Source: Luteitalea sp. TBR-22
Lineage (GTDB): Bacteria; Acidobacteriota; Vicinamibacteria; Vicinamibacterales; Vicinamibacteraceae
Direction: 5' to 3'
Length of the DNA stretch: 64,000 bases
Assembly: GCF_016865485.1 (NCBI RefSeq)
Contig: NZ_AP024452.1
Location: 2,688,501-2,752,500 of the forward strand
Shown: piece by piece, positions 4,140-63,892 of the stretch
How the letters are laid out: each line of letters begins with the position of its first letter
How positions within the stretch are numbered: the first letter of the stretch is position 1
Notes under the pieces: generated by a model
Seen by the model: the letters and a program-made list of their open reading frames with translations, nothing else
What the model was told of the DNA's origin: nothing
Databases searched by the model: none
Position numbers and translations under genes: made by a program

Positions 4140-5846
4140 TTACGGGACGCGCTCGTACAGGACCGTGGTCTCGTCGCGTGCGATCGCACGCCAGCGTCCC
4201 GAGGCGTCGATCAGGTCGCGGGCTTCGCGACGCTGGCTGCCGTACTCCGCGAGGTGGAGGACGAGGTAGCGCACGCCGGCACGGTCCAGTTCGTCGAAAC
4301 TGGCGCTCCTGAATGGAAAGTACCAGAGGACGTCGGCCCGGCGTCGATACGATTCCGGCGTGAAGCCGCTGTAGCCGTTGAGCAACGGCTTCCAGTGCGT
4401 GGTCGAGTCGAGCATGTAGTTGGCGTTGCGGGGCACGTCGATGCCGCGCCACCAGAACGGCATCTCGGCCACGACCCCGTCGGGGCGGGTCGCCAGCACC
4501 GCGTACACCGACGAGATGGGAGCTGCCGGCACGTACGGCACAGGACCACGGAACGCCTCGACGTTCACCGCCACCAGCGCAAGCCCTGCCAGGACCCCGG
4601 CGCGCTGCGGCCATCGTCGAGCCATCGCCGCGACCCCGAAGGCCGCGAGGATGGCCAGGCCTGTCAGCAGGAGGACGCCGAAGCGAGAGGCGGCGCGCAC
4701 GCCGCTGGCGAACGGCACCAGATGGTAGAAGGCGCGGTACACCGGCGTGGCTGGCCCGAACGACAGCACGAGACCGACGGCAACGAGGCCCATCGCGATG
4801 CGCACGTGTGGGTGTCTCCACGCCGGGACGGCGTCGGTGCCATCGGCCGCGCGGGCCGGCCGGCCAGCCGCGTCCATCGCCCGGGGGCTGCGCCACCCCA
4901 ACGCCGCGAGTGCCAGCAGCACGGCGGCCACTCCGGGGAAGAGGGAATCGCGCGGCTCACGCGTCTGGTACACGTGGCGCGCCCACGCCTCGTGGACGCG
5001 CGCCGGCGTGGCCATGTAGGCCGCGCCGTTGGCCGACATCGCCGCGACGAGGTCGAGCGATCGCTCGAAGCCGTGCGTCGCCTGCATCTCGCGGTAGGCG
5101 TGCATCACCGGCACGACGGGGAGCGCCAGGAGCACGCTGCCGACGACGGCGCCGGCGACGAGGGGTCGCCAGGGCGGCTGCAGCCAGCCGCGCAGGCGCA
5201 CGACCAGCACGATCAGGCCGCAGACGATGCCGAAGATGGCCAGGTAGCCCGAGGTCAGGGCCAGCAGCGCCGTCGCGACGCCGGCCAGCGCGCCGTGCCA
5301 CCAGCGCCGTTCCTGCGGGTCGCCGAGGGCGTCGAGTGCCACCAGGAGCAGCGGCAACCCGTAAGCGTGGATGGCCTGGATGTGGCCCATGCTCACCAGG
5401 GAGTGCGCGTTGAACGCGTACAGGCTGGCGGCGACCAGGGCCGGCCAGAATCGCCCCGTCCATCGCCAGGCCAGCCACCACATGGACCACGCCGACAGCG
5501 CGTATCCGAGCAGCAGCGAGAGGTTGTAGGTCAGCACCGGCCCGGCGCCCGCGGCGCGCACCGGCACCGAGAGCGCACCCGGAATGATGACCGGGTCGGA
5601 GAACGCGATGGTGTTGCGTTCGGGATGGAAGATGTTGCCCGCGAGCACGCGCGAGGGCGCCGTCACCAACGCATGCGCCACCCAGGTGATGGCCCAGGTG
5701 TTGAGGACGGTGTCCTTGTTGTCGTTGCGACTCAGCGTCGCCGGGGCGGATGCCAGCGGCCAGGTGTGGATCACCGAGAGCAGCAGGCAGATGGCGAAGG
5801 CCGCGAGTGCGCGGCGCGCTCGCGGCAGCTGGGGCTCAGGGCTCAA
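4140..5846 (-). CDS. Polytopic membrane protein, GT-C glycosyltransferase-like
   Basis: The protein has 568 residues with about ten hydrophobic segments (for example AAFAICLLLSVIHTWPLA near the N-terminus and VAVGLVLSFGPATPVY in the middle) and a hydrophilic C-terminal part of about 140 residues. The loop after the first membrane helix carries NDNKDTVLNTWAITW, an acidic loop reminiscent of GT-C-fold glycosyltransferases and YfhO/DUF2079-type proteins; no specific family is certain. The only start near the first helix is a TTG at 5846. It lies inside a heptameric repeat array, so residues 2-6 (SPEPQ) are encoded by the repeat and no Shine-Dalgarno is visible. It precedes the SGNH gene by 15 nt. 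A role in glycosylating exported proteins or polysaccharides is a guess. Confidence 0.65.
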   Translation of the reverse strand: MSPEPQLPRARRALAAFAICLLLSVIHTWPLASAPATLSRNDNKDTVLNTWAITWVAHALVTAPSRVLAGNIFHPERNTIAFSDPVIIPGALSVPVRAAGAGPVLTYNLSLLLGYALSAWSMWWLAWRWTGRFWPALVAASLYAFNAHSLVSMGHIQAIHAYGLPLLLVALDALGDPQERRWWHGALAGVATALLALTSGYLAIFGIVCGLIVLVVRLRGWLQPPWRPLVAGAVVGSVLLALPVVPVMHAYREMQATHGFERSLDLVAAMSANGAAYMATPARVHEAWARHVYQTREPRDSLFPGVAAVLLALAALGWRSPRAMDAAGRPARAADGTDAVPAWRHPHVRIAMGLVAVGLVLSFGPATPVYRAFYHLVPFASGVRAASRFGVLLLTGLAILAAFGVAAMARRWPQRAGVLAGLALVAVNVEAFRGPVPYVPAAPISSVYAVLATRPDGVVAEMPFWWRGIDVPRNANYMLDSTTHWKPLLNGYSGFTPESYRRRADVLWYFPFRSASFDELDRAGVRYLVLHLAEYGSQRREARDLIDASGRWRAIARDETTVLYERVP

Positions 5847-6008
5847 GGCGCAGGGGCTCAGGGCTTGACGGCTCAGGGCTCACGGCTCACGGCTCAAAGG
5901 TCAGAAGCTCCGAGTCCCGAGCGCCAAGGCCCAAGACTCAAGGCCCAAGGCCCAAGGCCCAGGGCCCAGGGTCCAGGGTCCAGGGCCCAGGGCCCAGGGC
6001 CCAAGGCC
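5831..6008. repeat. Heptameric repeat array (GGCTCAG then GGCCCAA/GGCCCAG types)
   Basis: Seven-base units run through the gap and into the first codons of the membrane protein gene. They are first of the type GGCTCAG, GGCTCAA, GGCTCAC, then GGCCCAA, GGCCCAG, GGTCCAG. Units vary mainly at the last two or three bases while the GGC core is kept. The register slips in places (for example around 5905-5930). Confidence 0.85.
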
Positions 6009-11999: not shown

Positions 12000-12000
12000 C

Positions 12001-12122
12001 AATTTGAGATTTGAAATCTGGAATTGATCGGCGGCCGGCCTGTCGGCCTTGCCGCTCGAGGATCCCGAGGGGCGGCGGCGTAGCCGCGCCCCCGAGAATT
12101 CCAAAGTTCGAATTTCGAATTG
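12001..12122. repeat. Composite repeat: two 26-nt AT-rich arms around a 70-nt GC core (copy 1)
   Basis: The left arm is 12001-12026 and the right arm 12097-12122. Each is three heptamers of the AATTTGA / AATTTCG type followed by AATTG. The core (12027-12096) is GC-rich with nested inverted repeats (GGCGGCCGGCC, GGCGGCGGCGTAGCCGCGCC). It starts one base after the protease stop codon and ends exactly at the udk stop codon. Confidence 0.85.
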
Positions 12123-12758
12123 TCAGCCGCGTGCCACCAGGCCCCGCGCCAGCGTCAGCAGCATCTCGATGGCGACGTCGTTGTGCCCGCCTTGCGGGAC
12201 GATGATGTCGGCGTACCGCTTGCTCGGCTCCACGAACTCGAGGTGCATCGGCTTGACGGTGCCCAGGTACTGGTCGATGACCGACTGCACGGTGCGCCCG
12301 CGCTCGGCGATGTCGCGCTGCAGGCGCCGGATGAAGCGCGTGTCGTCGTCGGCGTCGACGAACACCTTCACGTCCATCAGCTCGCGCAGCGCCTTGTCGG
12401 CGAAGATCAGGATGCCCTCGACGATGATCGCGGCGCGCGGCGCGATGACGTCGCTGGCCTCGAGGCGATTGTGGCGCGCGAAGTCGTACTGGGGCGCCTC
12501 GACCGCCTGCCTGGCGCGCAAGGCGCGCACGTGCTCCACCAGCAGGTCGGTCTCGAGCGAGTCGGGATGGTCGTAGTTGAGGGCGGCGCGTTCCTCGAGG
12601 CGCAGGTCGCTGCGGTCGCGGTAGTAGCGGTCGTGCTCCAGCACGGACACGTGGGCATCGCCGAGCGAGGCGGTGAGCCGCCGCACGACCGTCGTCTTGC
12701 CTGATCCCGAGCCCCCGGCGATGCCGATCACCACGGGCGTCACGCGCGCATCCGTCAT
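12123..12758 (-). CDS. udk: Uridine kinase
   Basis: The protein has 211 residues, the normal length for bacterial uridine kinase, which phosphorylates uridine and cytidine with ATP or GTP in pyrimidine salvage in the cytoplasm. The P-loop GIAGGSGSGKTT lies near residues 10-21. Other family features are visible: the EHDRYYRD substrate-binding segment, YDHPDSLETDLL, a DFARHNR segment and a lid region (RLQRDIAERGRT). ATG 12758 is chosen because the family N-terminus begins there; the open frame upstream is only repeat sequence. TACCAT lies 7 nt before the ATG with no Shine-Dalgarno, which suggests a leaderless message. The gene is exactly boxed between two 120-bp composite repeats. Confidence 0.92.
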   Translation of the reverse strand: MTDARVTPVVIGIAGGSGSGKTTVVRRLTASLGDAHVSVLEHDRYYRDRSDLRLEERAALNYDHPDSLETDLLVEHVRALRARQAVEAPQYDFARHNRLEASDVIAPRAAIIVEGILIFADKALRELMDVKVFVDADDDTRFIRRLQRDIAERGRTVQSVIDQYLGTVKPMHLEFVEPSKRYADIIVPQGGHNDVAIEMLLTLARGLVARG

Positions 12759-12770
12759 GCGCGTGATGGT

Positions 12771-12890
12771 AATTGGAATTTTGAAATTTGAAATTGTGGG
12801 CGGCCGGCCTCCGGCCGTGCCGCTCGATATACCCGAGGCGAGGGGCCGAAGGCCCTCGCCCGAGAATTTCAAATTTCGAATTTCAAATTG
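12771..12890. repeat. Composite repeat: two 26-nt AT-rich arms around a 68-nt GC core (copy 2)
   Basis: The left arm is 12771-12796 and the right arm 12865-12890, both built as three heptamers plus AATTG. The core shares extended blocks with copy 1 (GGCGGCCGGCCT, TGCCGCTCGA, a CCCGAGG block and a terminal CGAG), in the same orientation. It ends 6 bases before the HDOD gene stop codon and begins inside the udk -10-like element. Confidence 0.85.
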
Positions 12891-12896
12891 CCAGCG

Positions 12897-18063: not shown

Positions 18064-18161
18064 GCTCCCGACTCCCGACTCCCGCCTCCCGACTCCCGCT
18101 TCCCGATTCCCGACTCCCGACTCCCGACTCCCGATTCCCGACTCCCGATTCCCGACTCCCG
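18064..18161. repeat. Heptamer array, 14 units of NNTCCCG
   Basis: Fourteen uninterrupted seven-base units begin directly after the TAG at 18061-18063. TCCCG is invariant. The first two bases vary in the order GC, AC, AC, CC, AC, CT, AT, AC, AC, AC, AT, AC, AT, AC. The next unit (GGCTCTTC) breaks the pattern. Confidence 0.92.
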
Positions 18162-18275
18162 GCTCTTCCTGTCATATGCCACGCCCTGCCGTTTGACGGG
18201 CCCCGAGCGTCGCGCGAATATCACCGACGCGTTCCCCGGCACGCGCGCACGAGTCCGGGAGGAGGTCAGACGCAG

Positions 18276-19765: not shown

Positions 19766-19820
19766 CGCATGCCGGCACTCCCGGCAAGATGGCTGACCGT
19801 CGGCCAAGGCCGACGGCTAC

Positions 19821-19940
19821 GACGCCCGGGTGTCGGCGTCGCCAGTGGCCGACGGCCCCAGACTCCCGGGTGCAGGTGTCGCCCGTGGCCGACGCCCCCG
19901 GACGCCCGGGTGTCGGCGTCGCCCTTGGGCGACGCTCACG
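19821..19940. repeat. Three tandem copies of a 40-bp unit
   Basis: Copies occupy 19821-19860, 19861-19900 and 19901-19940 with an exact 40-base period. All share GAC-CCCGGGTG, then a TGTCGSCGTCGCC-like block, then a GGCCGAC block. The third copy ends in a REP-like palindrome (19916-19935) whose flank runs into the helicase stop codon. No spacers of CRISPR type are present. Confidence 0.85.
19916..19935. repeat. REP-like palindrome R1
   Basis: GCGTCGCCCTTGGGCGACGC is a near-perfect 20-base palindrome followed by CACGAACCGTCAG. The same flank follows copy R6 at 43989-44010. The TCA in this flank is the stop codon (TGA) of the minus-strand helicase. Confidence 0.75.
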
Positions 19941-43900: not shown

Positions 43901-44010
43901 GCGTCGACCTGAAGGTCGACGCCCACGAACCGCCTCCGAGGTCCTTGGGCGTCGAGCTTCAGCTCGACGCGCGCCGAACCGCCGATGAGCGTCGACCTGA
44001 AGGTCGACGC
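43901..44010. repeat. REP-like palindrome cluster R4-R5-R6
   Basis: Three 22-base palindromes lie at 43901-43922, 43949-43970 and 43989-44010. R4 and R6 have arms GCGTCGACCT/AGGTCGACGC around GA; R5 has arms GCGTCGAGCT/AGCTCGACGC around TC. R4 and R6 share the flank CCACGAACCG. The first starts immediately after the TGA stop codon of the TPR lipoprotein. Confidence 0.85.
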
Positions 44011-44054
44011 CCACGAACCGTCAGCTCGACGCGCGGGTTGCCTGCAGCCTGTTG

Positions 44055-46115: not shown

Positions 46116-46170
46116 CTCGGAAGACGAGACGCATTGTACCCACCGACCGTTCCTGGTTCACTGCGCGTGC

Positions 46171-46196
46171 AATTTGAAATCCGGAATTTCAAATTG
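46171..46196. repeat. Solo 26-nt AT-rich arm
   Basis: The same 26-base layout as the arms of the udk-flanking elements: three heptamers (AATTTGA, AATCCGG, AATTTCA) plus AATTG. Here there is no partner arm or GC core. It lies between the S9 peptidase start and the ilvC stop codon. Confidence 0.75.
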
Positions 46197-46214
46197 GCGC
46201 AGGCGCGCCAGCGC

Positions 46215-47418
<1,204 letters not shown>

Positions 47419-49686: not shown

Positions 49687-49752
49687 AGGCTCAGGGCTCT
49701 AGGCTCAGGGCTCAGAAAGCAGGCTGCAGGCTACGGGCTGCAGGCTACGAGG
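49687..49752. repeat. Heptamer array filling the ilvD-ilvB gap
   Basis: Units of the GGCTCAG, GGCTCTA, GGCTGCA and GGCTACG types run from 3 bases before the ilvB start codon to the base before the ilvD stop codon. Confidence 0.85.
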
Positions 49753-51456
49753 TTACCGAGTCGGATTGGCCAGGGTGGCCGCCGGGCGCGTGATGGCGCC
49801 CTCGGAGGCCGACGACACGAGGCTGGCGTACTTGGCCATGACTCCCGTCGTGTAGCGCGGCGCCGGTGGCACGTACGCCGCGAGCCGCCGCGCGATCTCG
49901 TCGTCGCTCACCGCCATGTCGAGGCGGCGGTTCTTGAGGTCGAAGGTGATGACGTCGCCGTCGCGGATGGCCGCGATGGGTCCGCCGTTGACGGCTTCGG
50001 GAGCGACGTGGCCGGCCATCAGGCCGCGCGTCGCGCCCGAGAAGCGGCCGTCGGTGAGCAGGGCGACCTTGTCGCCGAGGCCGGCGCCCATGATGGCGGC
50101 CGTCACGCCGAGCATCTCGCGCATGCCGGGACCACCCTTCGGCCCCTCGTGGCGGATGACCACGACGTCGCCTGCCTGGATGCTGCCGGCCTGCACGGCC
50201 GCGAAGGCCGCTTCCTCGCCCTCGAACACCCGGGCCGGGCCCTGGTGACCGGCGAGCGACGAGCCGGCAACCTTCACCACGCAGCCCTCGGGCGCGATGT
50301 TGCCCTTGAGGATGAGCAGTCCGCCGGTCGGCTTGAGTGGCGTGGCGAACGGGCGCACGACGTCCTGGCCGGGCGTCTCGACGACCGCCGCGGCTTCCTC
50401 GCCGATGGTCCGGCCGGTGACCGTCGGCGCGCTGCCGTCGATCAGGCCCGCCTGCACGAGCCGCTGGCACACGACGCCCGTGCCGCCCGCCTTGTGCAGG
50501 TCGGCCGCCACGTAGCGCCCACCCGGCTTCAGGTCGGCGAGCAGCGGCGTGCGGTCGTTGATCGGGTTGTAGTCGTCGATGCTCAGGGACACGCCGGCCT
50601 CGGCCGCGATCGCGAGCAGGTGCATCACCGCGTTGGTCGAGCCGCCGGTCGCGACGACGCCGGCGATCGCGTTCTCGACCGACGTGCGCGTGATCAGGTC
50701 GCGCGGCCGGACGTTGCGCGCCAGGTTCTCCATCGCCAGCCGACCGGCCTGCTCGGCTGCCGCTTCCTTGGCCGGGTGCGTCGCCGGGATGCTCACGCTG
50801 CCCATCGCCGCCACGCCGAGGAACTCGGCCACCATGGCCATCGTGTTGGCGGTGAACTGGCCGCCGCACGCGCCCGCGCCGGGGCAGGCCTTGTCCTCGA
50901 GGTCCTTGAGTTCGAGCAGGGTGATGCGCCCGGCGGCCTGCGCGCCGATGCCCTCGAACACGTCCTGGATGGTGACGTCCTTGCCCTGCCAGGTGCCCGG
51001 ATCGATCGACCCGCCGTAGAGGATCACGCCCGGGATGTTCAGGCGCGCCAGCGCCATGATCGTCCCCGGAATCGTCTTGTCGCAGCCGCACAGCATGACG
51101 ACCGCGTCGAGGTGGTGCCCGAAGGTGACCAGTTCGATCGAGTCGGCGATCACCTCGCGGCTCACCAGCGAGGCGCGCATGCCCTCGGCGCCCATCGTGA
51201 TGCCGTCCGACACGGCGATCGTGTTGAACTCCATCGGCGTGCCGCCGGCCTTGCGCACGCCGTCCTTGACGTGCTCGGCCAGGCGCCGCAGGTGGAAGTT
51301 GCACGGGCCGATCTCGGTCCACGTGTTCGCGATGCCGACCAGCGGCTTGGCGAGGTCCTCGTCGGTGAAGGCGCAGGCCTTCAACATGGCGCGCGCAGCG
51401 GCGCGGTTGGGGCCGTCCGTGAGGGCGGCGCTCTTGTGCTTCTTCGGGTCGCTCAT
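49753..51456 (-). CDS. ilvD: Dihydroxy-acid dehydratase
   Basis: The protein has 567 residues. Iron-sulfur ligands are seen in [11 protein letters not shown] and [16 protein letters not shown], as in the IlvD/Edd family. Other markers are [14 protein letters not shown] (the family DAH-type segment), [29 protein letters not shown] and, near the C-terminus, [22 protein letters not shown]. It dehydrates dihydroxy acids to the 2-oxo acids of valine and isoleucine. ATG 51456 overlaps the pheA stop codon (ATGA), so the two are translationally coupled. The normal neighbour order ilvD before ilvBN-ilvC is kept. Confidence 0.96.
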
Positions 51457-52346
51457 GCCTGGGCTCCGGCTGCCACGGGGGCAGGCGCGGTCGTCGAACG
51501 GGGCAGCAGCGTGGAGGGATACGACCCGAGGTTGCGGAGCATGGGGGCGAACTCGCCGAGATGGGCGAGGGCACGCGCGCATCGCGCGTCCTGCGCGCCG
51601 ACCGCGAGGTCGACGTAGAACAGGTACTCCCAGGGGCGCCCGGGGATCGGGCGCGATTCCAGCTTGGTCAGGTCGATGCCCCGCAGCGCGAAGACGCTGA
51701 GCGCCTTGAACAGCGCGCCGGCCTCGTTGGACAGGGTGAAGACGATGGTGGTCTTGTTGGTCGGGGTGCCGGCGTCGACGGCCGCGGGCGACACCACGAG
51801 GAACCGGGTGATGTTGTCGGCGAAGTCCTGGATGCCCGATTGCAGCACCTGCAGGCCGAACACCGCGGCCGCGCGCTCGGAGGCGATCGCCGCCGCGCCG
51901 GCCAATTGCCGGTCCTTGATCAGCTTCACGCTCCCGGCCGTGTCGTACGAGGCCACCACCTCCACACCGGGCAGGTTCCGCAGGTAGCGGTCGCATTGGG
52001 CGAGGGCCTGCGGGTGCGAGTAGATCTGCCGGATCTGGTCCATCGTGGTGCCCGGCAGCGCGATCAGGCTGTGCACCACCCGGAGCTCGACGTCGCCGAC
52101 GATGTGGAGCGGGTGCTCGAGGAGCAGGTCGTAATTGCGGTGGATGGTGCCGCCGATCGAGTTCTCGATGGGCAGGACTCCGAGGCTGGCCGTGCCGCCC
52201 TGGACGGCGCGGAACACGTCCTCGAAGCTGGGACAGGGGAGGAGCGTCGCGTCCGGCGCGTGCTTCTGGGCCGCTGCCTCGCTGTACGCTCCCGGTTCTC
52301 CCTGATACGCCACCACCATGCCCTTCCATGGTGCCGGGGTGGGCAT
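51453..52346 (-). CDS. pheA: Prephenate dehydratase
   Basis: The protein has 297 residues: a PheA dehydratase domain without chorismate mutase, plus ACT. The dehydratase part shows [35 protein letters not shown], a [14 protein letters not shown] segment, [14 protein letters not shown] and the catalytic TRF motif in DNITRFLV. The ACT part ([21 protein letters not shown]) ends in the phenylalanine-binding [15 protein letters not shown]. It makes phenylpyruvate. It heads the branched-chain operon, which is unusual. TATAAC (52358-52363, minus strand) ends 11 nt before the ATG and no Shine-Dalgarno is visible, so the 5' leader is very short. Confidence 0.95.
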
Positions 52347-52445
52347 CGTAAGTCAAAGTTATATTCGTTAGGCAATCATGCGCCGCATTTATTGGATGCG
52401 GCCCGCGCATGGACTGGCGGACTCCGACCTTCGGGCTTCGCAGTC

Positions 52446-52645
52446 GGCCTTGGTCCTTCGGCCTTCGGCCTTCGCTCTTCCCGGTACCCCGTACCCGGTA
52501 CCCGCTACTCGCTGGCCGGTGCCCGGCGCCGGTGCCCGCCGCCCGCCGCCCGCTGCCCGGTGCCCGGCGCCCGGTGCCCGGTGCCCGCTGCCCGCTGCCC
52601 GGTGCCCGGTGCCCGCTGCCCGGTGCCCGGTGCCCGGTGCCCGGC
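52446..52645. repeat. Long heptamer array ending at a -10 box
   Basis: It starts with GGCCTTC/TTCGGCC units, passes through CCGGTAC and CCGCTAC units (about 52481-52515), then about 18 units of CCGGTGC, CCGCTGC, CCGGCGC and CCGCCGC up to 52645. One six-base unit breaks the phase near 52530. TATAAT follows directly. Confidence 0.9.
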
Positions 52646-52651
52646 TATAAT
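52646..52651 (+). promoter_or_regulatory. Perfect -10 box, leaderless start
   Basis: TATAAT lies 9 bases before ATG 52661, leaving a leader of only about 2-3 bases if transcription starts at the usual distance. The -35 position falls inside the heptamer array. Confidence 0.65.
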
Positions 52652-52660
52652 CACCCGTTC

Positions 52661-53185
52661 ATGCTCCGCCCGTACCGTGGCCAATGGCCCCAGCTCGACG
52701 CGTCGGTCTTCATCGACCAGAGCGCCCAGGTCATCGGCGACGTGACGATCGGGCCGGAGTCGAGCGTCTGGATGAACTGCGTGGTGCGCGGCGACGTCCA
52801 CCACATCCGCATCGGCGCTCAATCCAACGTCCAGGACGGCACCATCGTCCACGTGATGCGGGGCACGCACCCGACGACGATCGGCGACAAGGTGACGATC
52901 GGCCACGGGTGCCTGATTCACGGCTGCACGATCGACGACCGCTGCCTGATCGGCATGGGCGCCATCGTGCTCAACGGTGCGGTCATCGGCGCCGACTCGA
53001 TCGTCGCCGCCGGCACGCTGGTGACCGAGCGGACGGTCGTGCCGCCGCGCTCCCTGGTGATGGGCAGCCCGGGCAAGGTCCGGCGCGAACTGACCGACGC
53101 CGAGGTGGCGTCCATCCTCGACTACGCCGCCCGCTACGTGGGCTACCGGCTCGACTACATGGCCCCAGAGGACTCCCGCGGCTGA
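52661..53185 (+). CDS. Gamma-carbonic anhydrase-like hexapeptide-repeat protein
   Basis: The protein has 174 residues of left-handed beta-helix repeats (QVIGDVTIGPESSVWMN, IRIGAQSNVQDG, TIGDKVTIGHGCLIHG, AVIGADSIVAAGTLV). Three histidines in the zinc positions of the gamma-class are present: His64 in GTIVHV, His82 and His87 in GHGCLIHGC. The short form resembles the YrdA/CaiE-like subfamily, in which true carbonic anhydrase activity is often absent. The C-terminal helices (DAEVASILDYAARYVGYRL) pack on the trimer. The start is preceded by a TATAAT and no ribosome-binding site. hisS begins 13 nt after the stop codon, so the two are probably cotranscribed. Confidence 0.88.
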   Translation: MLRPYRGQWPQLDASVFIDQSAQVIGDVTIGPESSVWMNCVVRGDVHHIRIGAQSNVQDGTIVHVMRGTHPTTIGDKVTIGHGCLIHGCTIDDRCLIGMGAIVLNGAVIGADSIVAAGTLVTERTVVPPRSLVMGSPGKVRRELTDAEVASILDYAARYVGYRLDYMAPEDSRG

Positions 53186-63848: not shown

Positions 63849-63892
63849 CGACTGCCTTCCCGACTGCCGACTGCCGACTGCCCACTGCCGTC
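63849..63892. repeat. CGACTGC heptamer array
   Basis: CGACTGC units (with one CTTCC interruption and a CCACTGC variant) lie about 65 bases after the laminin-B-like gene. Confidence 0.8.

Follow-up and report, generated by a model that had tools for sequence, protein, structure and literature searches.

The divergent genes of a prephenate dehydratase (pheA) and of a gamma-carbonic-anhydrase-like protein are separated, in Luteitalea sp. TBR-22, by a gap that holds a heptanucleotide array. This soil/plant bacterium belongs to the Acidobacteriota, class Vicinamibacteria. Positions are those of the whole stretch of DNA analysed (64,000 nucleotides), referred to as the window. The features of the locus are:

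51453–52346, minus strand: prephenate dehydratase gene (pheA), the divergent neighbour (translation; Pfam PF00800)
52347–52400, minus strand: conserved block upstream of pheA, AAGTCAAAGTTATATTCGTTAGGCAATCATGC...GCATTTATTGGATGCG / AAGTCAAAGTTATATTCGTTAGGCAATCATGCG...ATTTATTGGATGCG (orthologous gaps aligned)
52428–52474, plus strand: degenerate run of CCTTCGG heptamers, about 7 units (TRF and sequence)
52480–52644, plus strand: heptamer array, CCCGGTA then CCCG(G/C)TG/CCCGGCG, about 23.7 units (TRF, lag scan, family assignment)
52646–52651, plus strand: TATAAT, a perfect -10 hexamer 9 nt before the ATG at 52661 (sequence and orthologous gaps)
52661–53185, plus strand: gene of a gamma-carbonic-anhydrase-like hexapeptide-repeat protein of 174 aa (translation; Pfam PF00132 Hexapep; orthologues)

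An earlier note, made from the sequence alone, had reported a period-7 array near 52446 that runs up to a perfect -10 box 9 nt before an ATG. Both statements are borne out: TRF calls about 27 heptamer units at 52448–52644 (CCTTCGG, then CCCGGTA/CCCGGTG), the lag-7 scan scores this interval at 94, and the array ends at 52644 with the single base C52645 between it and TATAAT. In the 52480–52644 array perfection is highest on the gene side, the final three units being perfect. This array is assigned to the ACCGGGC family; read along the coding strand of the gene that follows, it is C-rich, and its minus strand reads (GGGCACC)n. Across the gap, the block of about 50 nt at 52347–52400 is strongly conserved in four Luteitalea species (TBR-22, G003, G004 and G001, the last of which we take to be L. 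pratensis); it is probably promoter or regulatory DNA of pheA, i.e. a candidate site.

The -10 box and the adjoining array

TATAAT is present in the five Luteitalea species read (5/5), in each case 9–10 nt before the ATG. The DNA upstream of it varies: in G003 and G004 the pheA/gamma-CA gap is array-free, with about 50–65 nt from the conserved pheA block to TATAAT, in L. pratensis a degenerate region precedes the hexamer, and in G002 another array, (GCCGGTT)n, lies just upstream of it. Because TATAAT and its spacing are kept in five species while the arrays are absent or different, an old -10 stands here beside a recent array. The conserved -10 is independent of the array. If the G002 array is independent, a heptamer array would have arisen at least twice upstream of this TATAAT. 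At 52446 the run would have expanded in the gap after the split from the array-free relatives, and would so have come to adjoin an old leaderless -10 that may still work without a recognisable -35.

The position of the hexamer at 52646–52651 predicts a leaderless transcript or one with a leader of 1–3 nt. Such closeness of a -10 to the start codon is not unusual in this genome. Over the whole sample, near-matches of TATAAT are most frequent exactly 6 nt ahead of starts (17 cases), a peak which suggests that many transcripts of Luteitalea may be leaderless. We found no -35-like hexamer upstream of the 52646–52651 box (the best match is 3/6), a promoter scanner finds no promoter there, and a -35 is not obvious upstream of TATAAT in the array-free relatives.

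In favour of a copy-number switch of expression (phase variation) is the long imperfect repeat in promoter position, adjoining a perfect -10; as had been noted, a -35 would fall within the array. The further claim, that a change of one unit would shift the phase of a -35, is not supported. When any of the last six units is lost or duplicated in silico, at least 22 bases before TATAAT stay unaltered, since the sequence that moves in is again the same unit, and no gain or loss of units creates a -35. These in silico changes thus leave the spacing of promoter elements unaltered, unlike unit-number changes in phase-variable promoter repeats. The locus shows no -35 that could be shifted, the -10 is retained in array-free relatives, and both flanking genes encode housekeeping-type enzymes. 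The heptamers of Xanthomonas and Nostoc, repeats of the same kind, show no link to phase-variable gene classes, and phase variation was judged unlikely for them (PMC4692102). The in silico changes and the array-free orthologues lead us to reject a -35 phase switch; phase variation at 52446 is highly improbable and the 52448–52644 array is unlikely to be an on/off switch.

Two further candidates were rejected. The array and TATAAT do not form a repeated promoter cassette: -10 matches (5/6 or better) are no commoner beside arrays, being found at 5 of 64 array-bearing genes and at 68 of 990 others. Nor does the 52448–52644 array form a notable RNA or DNA hairpin, its stability in folds computed without G4s being no better than that of shuffles (z -0.02 and 0.28 for RNA and DNA respectively).

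Abundance, families and orientation of the arrays

The chromosome is closed (6,468,984 bp), and the window spans its bases 2,688,501–2,752,500. We scanned 120 evenly spread pieces of at most 20 kb plus the window, i.e. 2.46 Mb or 38% of the chromosome, with one scoring rule for every period (T=20); genes came from a simple caller of our own. Since the assembly is a hybrid led by short reads, unit counts may be inexact (PMC8852301). The scan returned 147 arrays of period 7 covering 7,553 bp, and 0, 0, 0, 9, 5, 0, 1 and 0 arrays of periods 4, 5, 6, 8, 9, 10, 11 and 12 respectively; first-order Markov controls gave 0. The earlier note had proposed period 7 as the shared property of the arrays, to be compared with periods 5, 6, 8 and 9 in intergenic DNA. 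With gaps only and a lower threshold, period 7 reaches 213 arrays against 0, 1, 23 and 6 for these four periods (0–1 for periods 4–6): the enrichment in the sampled gaps is genuine and strong, and the comparison set by the note comes out in favour of its observation. Of 1,208 gaps with a length of 30 nt or more, 178 (15%) carry an array, and among 164 arrays 149 are intergenic and 12 lie inside predicted genes. The array at 52446 is one of several hundred in intergenic DNA of TBR-22. Period-8 arrays form a smaller class (23–33) in the sampled gaps, where periods 5 and 6 are nearly absent.

The gamma-CA loci of other Acidobacteriota (296 kb) contain 12 period-7 arrays against 0–1 of any other period, and these 12 use yet other units. 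No period-7 array was found in 523 kb from other phyla.

Eight array sites had been listed in the window. Arrays are confirmed at 5831, 18064, 52446 and 63849, at 47261 in degenerate form and at 49687 as short runs, whereas the sites near 1700 and 42206 hold scattered degenerate units below any threshold. Besides the 52446 locus these are:

5832–6008, unstranded: two arrays in one gap, GGGCTCA family at 5832–5896 and CCAAGGC family at 5924–6008 (TRF, lag scan)
18065–18165, minus strand: 14 units of CTCCCGA (GGGAGTC on the minus strand), beginning 1 nt past a stop codon (TRF)
47259–47368, unstranded: degenerate GGCCTTC/GGCATTC heptamer run (TRF)
49687–49749, unstranded: short GGCTCAG and GGCTNNN heptamer runs (TRF)
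63860–63890, unstranded: 4.4 units of CCGACTG, ACTGCCG family (TRF, lag scan)

Other repeats were seen in passing. AAATTTG heptamers form inverted arms round a related GC-rich core (GGCGGCCGGCC...) at 12000–12123, 12759–12896 and 46116–46214, and such MITE-like hairpin elements lie also at about 0.444, 0.555, 2.647 and 4.814 Mb. Short palindromes, GCGTCGACCTGAAGGTCGACGC / CGTAGCCGTCGACCTTCAGGTCGACGGCTACG, occur at 43901–44054 and in orthologous L. pratensis gaps; they recur in both species and are REP-like, and Y1_Tnp genes are few in these genomes. At 19808–19934 a tandem repeat with a 40-bp unit (3.2 copies) adjoins a gene end.

The 164 arrays are built from 33 canonical units, and nine families account for 136 of them (83%). 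The largest family, GGGAGTC with GGGAATC, comprises 50 arrays, plus 6 scored as GGGAATC; the others include GGCTCAG (18), CCCGGTG (17), TTGGGCC (16), GGCAGTC (11), TGACGTT (9), GGCGTTC (5) and AAATTTG (4). The earlier statement that each locus has a different unit is thus not sustained. Its GGCTCAG, GGCCCAA, CTCCCGA, CCCGGTG and CGACTGC correspond to five recurring families, and units look locus-specific because a 64-kb window samples each family only once or twice. Over the whole genome, matches number 480 for (CCCGGTG)3 (at most 3 mismatches), 409 for (GGGARTC)4 (at most 1) and 151 for (GGCTCAG)4 (at most 2); the reversed controls give 4, 0 and 0.

The arrays are oriented relative to the nearest gene edge. 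On the top strand those at the left edge of a gap are G-rich (56:10) and those at the right edge C-rich (70:12). This skew form of the rule amounts to 126:22 in TBR-22 (p=1e-18), holds at both 3' and 5' gene ends, and decays with distance from the ORF, from 71:7 within 10 nt to 35:9 at 10–30 nt, 13:3 at 30–60 nt and 9:7 beyond 60 nt. The rule is better stated by unit identity, each family having a fixed orientation relative to the edge: 139 of 157 arrays are consistent, where 94 +/- 4 are expected and the maximum of 2000 simulations is 111. The rule is mirror-symmetric in the gap: a unit that reads one way on the left appears on the right as its reverse complement, whatever the direction of the genes. 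In gaps with two arrays the G-rich one precedes the C-rich one 16 times and the reverse order is never seen (0); the two share their family in 8 of 23 gaps (12% expected). Within 10 nt of an ORF, 3' ends are preferred over 5' ends (85:26, p=6e-10) with frequent contact to the stop codon, and in the TGACGTT family the stop TGA forms part of the unit.

Such a layout might be expected of functional gene-boundary elements, in which mirror-symmetric DNA or RNA structures terminate transcripts, shield the 3' ends of mRNAs or insulate genes, the edge orientation being under selection and the exact unit free to vary. The strict orientation and its decay with distance, the 3'-end preference and the inverted pairs in G-then-C order only all fit, and among the similarly arranged Xanthomonas and Nostoc repeats, starts and stops of transcripts are commoner within those that form G4s than in controls (PMC4692102). 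However, most gaps have a single array and thus no hairpin partner, only the minority of gaps counted above carry arrays at all, and these are gained and lost between congeners. Moreover, 26 of the arrays within 10 nt adjoin 5' ends, and folding of the 52448–52644 array shows no gain over shuffled sequence. The strongest competitor of the explanation that we favour below is selection for a part in ending transcripts or keeping genes apart; we regard boundary elements as possible but doubtful.

Four units with a GGG tract every 7 bases would make one G-quadruplex, which might act on the G-rich strand. A GGG/CCC unit is present in 113 of 164 arrays, the largest family is GGGAGTC/GGGAATC, of which GGGAATC forms a G4 in vitro (PMC4692102), and the minus strand at 52446 is itself (GGGCACC)n. 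Yet nearly one third of the arrays have no GGG, and these families keep their orientation all the same (GGCAGTC 10/11, TGACGTT 9/10, AAATTTG 5/5; skew p=7e-4), so that G4 formation is rejected as the sole cause. Periods 5, 6, 8 and 9 would also allow G4s and are nearly absent. An explanation by G-quadruplex elements is quite unlikely.

Orientation was also considered in the frame of replication, with dnaA at base 1 and the GC-skew turn near 3.1 Mb. Among loci with 0–1 mismatches, 25 of 28 carry CCCGGTG on the leading strand, and the GGCTCAG and TTGGGCC families lean to the same replichore orientation. The largest family, GGGAGTC, does not, and replichore polarity, strong in the former three, was rejected as a general cause.

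Turnover between species and known heptamer repeats

Between TBR-22 and L. pratensis 50 orthologous gaps were compared: 36 are array-free, 3 have arrays in both species, 3 in TBR-22 only and 8 in L. pratensis only. In all three gaps with arrays in both, the unit differs. The gap orthologous to 5832–6008 has no array in L. pratensis, and the one orthologous to 18065–18165 has another unit (ACCTGAG family) at the same edge. Arrays are thus gained, lost and replaced by other units at the species level. Degenerate ends gave no significant direction of growth, the 5' half of the G-strand being cleaner in 26 of 45 arrays.

The vocabulary of units is lineage-specific. In four congeners (CCCGGTG)3 has 383, 309 (G002), 154 and 12 matches, and in the sister genus (g2) 0–2, i.e. 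background; G002 lacks arrays of GGGARTC and of GGCTCAG. The same search in other genera points to CCCAGTG and CCCGGAG (G023), CTCGGTG (G025), CCCGGTT (G030) or the reversed pattern (G055). A 400-kb block of L. pratensis keeps the G/C-skew rule 13 times and breaks it 12 times; its commonest family, AACGCCG, is consistent in the TBR-22 sense (8/8), a thin result from few arrays.

Heterocystous cyanobacteria carry STRRs, short tandem heptanucleotide arrays in intergenic DNA, and the likening of the window's arrays to such cyanobacterial repeats was apt. Both are intergenic heptanucleotide arrays; their units appear to differ. Calothrix repeats are cited in PMC4692102. Among known systems the nearest are the repeats of Xanthomonas and Nostoc, with units GGGNATC / GGGGA(T/C)T, for which G4 formation was reported in vitro (Rehm et al. 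2015, PMC4692102). As in TBR-22 these have period 7, are intergenic and form dozens to hundreds of dispersed arrays; they lie near the ORF neighbouring them 5' on the G-rich strand, whatever its direction, touch stop codons, occur singly or as inverted pairs, are depleted between divergent genes and are unlinked to phase-variable gene classes (PMC4692102). A dispersed and mostly intergenic 7-bp unit is what we find (147 arrays against 0 for periods 4–6; 149 of 164 intergenic), and the edge position also agrees in TBR-22 (126:22), while the small L. pratensis sample shows it in the unit-identity form only. The unit GGGAATC of the Xanthomonas/Nostoc type (PMC4692102) occurs literally in TBR-22; that consensus is matched by the largest family and not by GGGCACC of 52446 or by the families without GGG.

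The differences from this precedent are that TBR-22 has at least nine coexisting families, some without GGG, under one orientation rule, that Luteitalea belongs to a different phylum, and that its arrays turn over and change unit whereas 83% are shared between two Xanthomonas species (PMC4692102). Other direct repeats, TAACTGA, are described from Beggiatoaceae, cyanobacteria and Bacteroidetes (MacGregor 2015, PMC4679880). These too are intergenic heptamer arrays scattered through the genome, but with one AT-rich unit placed mostly right before starts, in contrast to the several GC-rich units, mostly at stops, of TBR-22 (PMC4679880). Finally, a 2007 survey (ref 33 in PMC4692102), as far as its citation there conveys, described long SSRs of large GC-rich genomes in which heptamers are over-represented. 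TBR-22 resembles this class in its longer units, non-pathogenic host, large GC-rich genome and excess of unit length 7; the survey as cited there gives counts, to which our analysis adds, for Vicinamibacteria, families, orientation, ortholog turnover and one promoter-adjacent case (PMC4692102).

The earlier note knew of no described equivalent. This stands for the Acidobacteriota, for which we found no paper on such repeats among open-access papers, and falls more generally, since the Xanthomonas/Nostoc repeats are of this kind and obey the same rule of position (PMC4692102). New are the occurrence in Acidobacteriota (a third phylum), the coexistence of several families, non-G4 units under the rule and the replacement of units between species.

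Origin and meaning of the arrays

Abundance, period specificity, family structure, the edge rule, the preference for 3' ends and turnover are all direct observations. They are probably best explained by about nine families, peculiar to the lineage, whose arrays keep arising in gaps, growing, disappearing and giving way to other units, with a fixed orientation to the edge; the arrays are most likely fast-turnover repeat DNA. Growth would occur by replication slippage, new sites and inverted partners may be seeded by template switching or by copying between gaps, and arrays would persist where tolerated, at gap edges. Any effect on transcript ends or on upstream promoter DNA would be modest at most. 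Slippage alone does not account for the recurrence of units at dozens of gaps, for the length of 7 only, or for an orientation tied to the edge; these three features suggest selection or a specific copying mechanism. Against the explanation by recurrent families stands L. pratensis, where the 400-kb sample does not show the skew form of the rule and has few arrays for the unit-identity form.

Dispersal by a mobile agent was also considered. In this case the arrays would be arms of MITE/REP-like hairpins that a transposase, e.g. a RAYT, has spread. The AAATTTG elements do have inverted arms with a shared core, a recurring core adjoins GGCTCAG arrays, and identical units are dispersed. But Y1_Tnp (PF01797) has 2 matches in TBR-22 and 0 in G002, a congener with 309 (CCCGGTG)3 matches, and the absence of the transposase from this array-rich genome leads us to reject spread by RAYT. 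Most families have neither a common core nor a fixed array length, so that the association of a conserved palindromic core with a transposase, typical of RAYT/REP or MITE elements, is not found for them, and orthologous gaps mostly show replacement of units instead of clean empty sites. Mobile hairpins are thus a very unlikely source.

A bolder idea, which we hold to be unlikely, is that Vicinamibacteria actively make arrays by a process specific for unit length, which would write 7-bp units into gene edges in a fixed, mirror-symmetric orientation, with the unit swapped between lineages. Its agent could, as speculatively, be an enzyme that copies units or a mechanism coupled to replication and primed by hairpins, each genus having its own heptamer set. 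The replichore preference of three families (CCCGGTG, 25/28) is noted alongside.

The evidence supports the conclusion that these arrays are ordinary in kind and unusual in regularity. An array beside a -10 should not be read as a switch. In Luteitalea the shared property, i.e. length 7 and edge orientation, is separable from unit sequence and G4 potential, a separation beyond the reach of the Xanthomonas/Nostoc work with its one unit type. The pattern poses the real question of how heptamer repeats spread and why seven. Why bacterial repeats of length 7 are in excess, and what lays them down, is an old question that can be put to the test in Luteitalea, a genus that is culturable and has two closed genomes.
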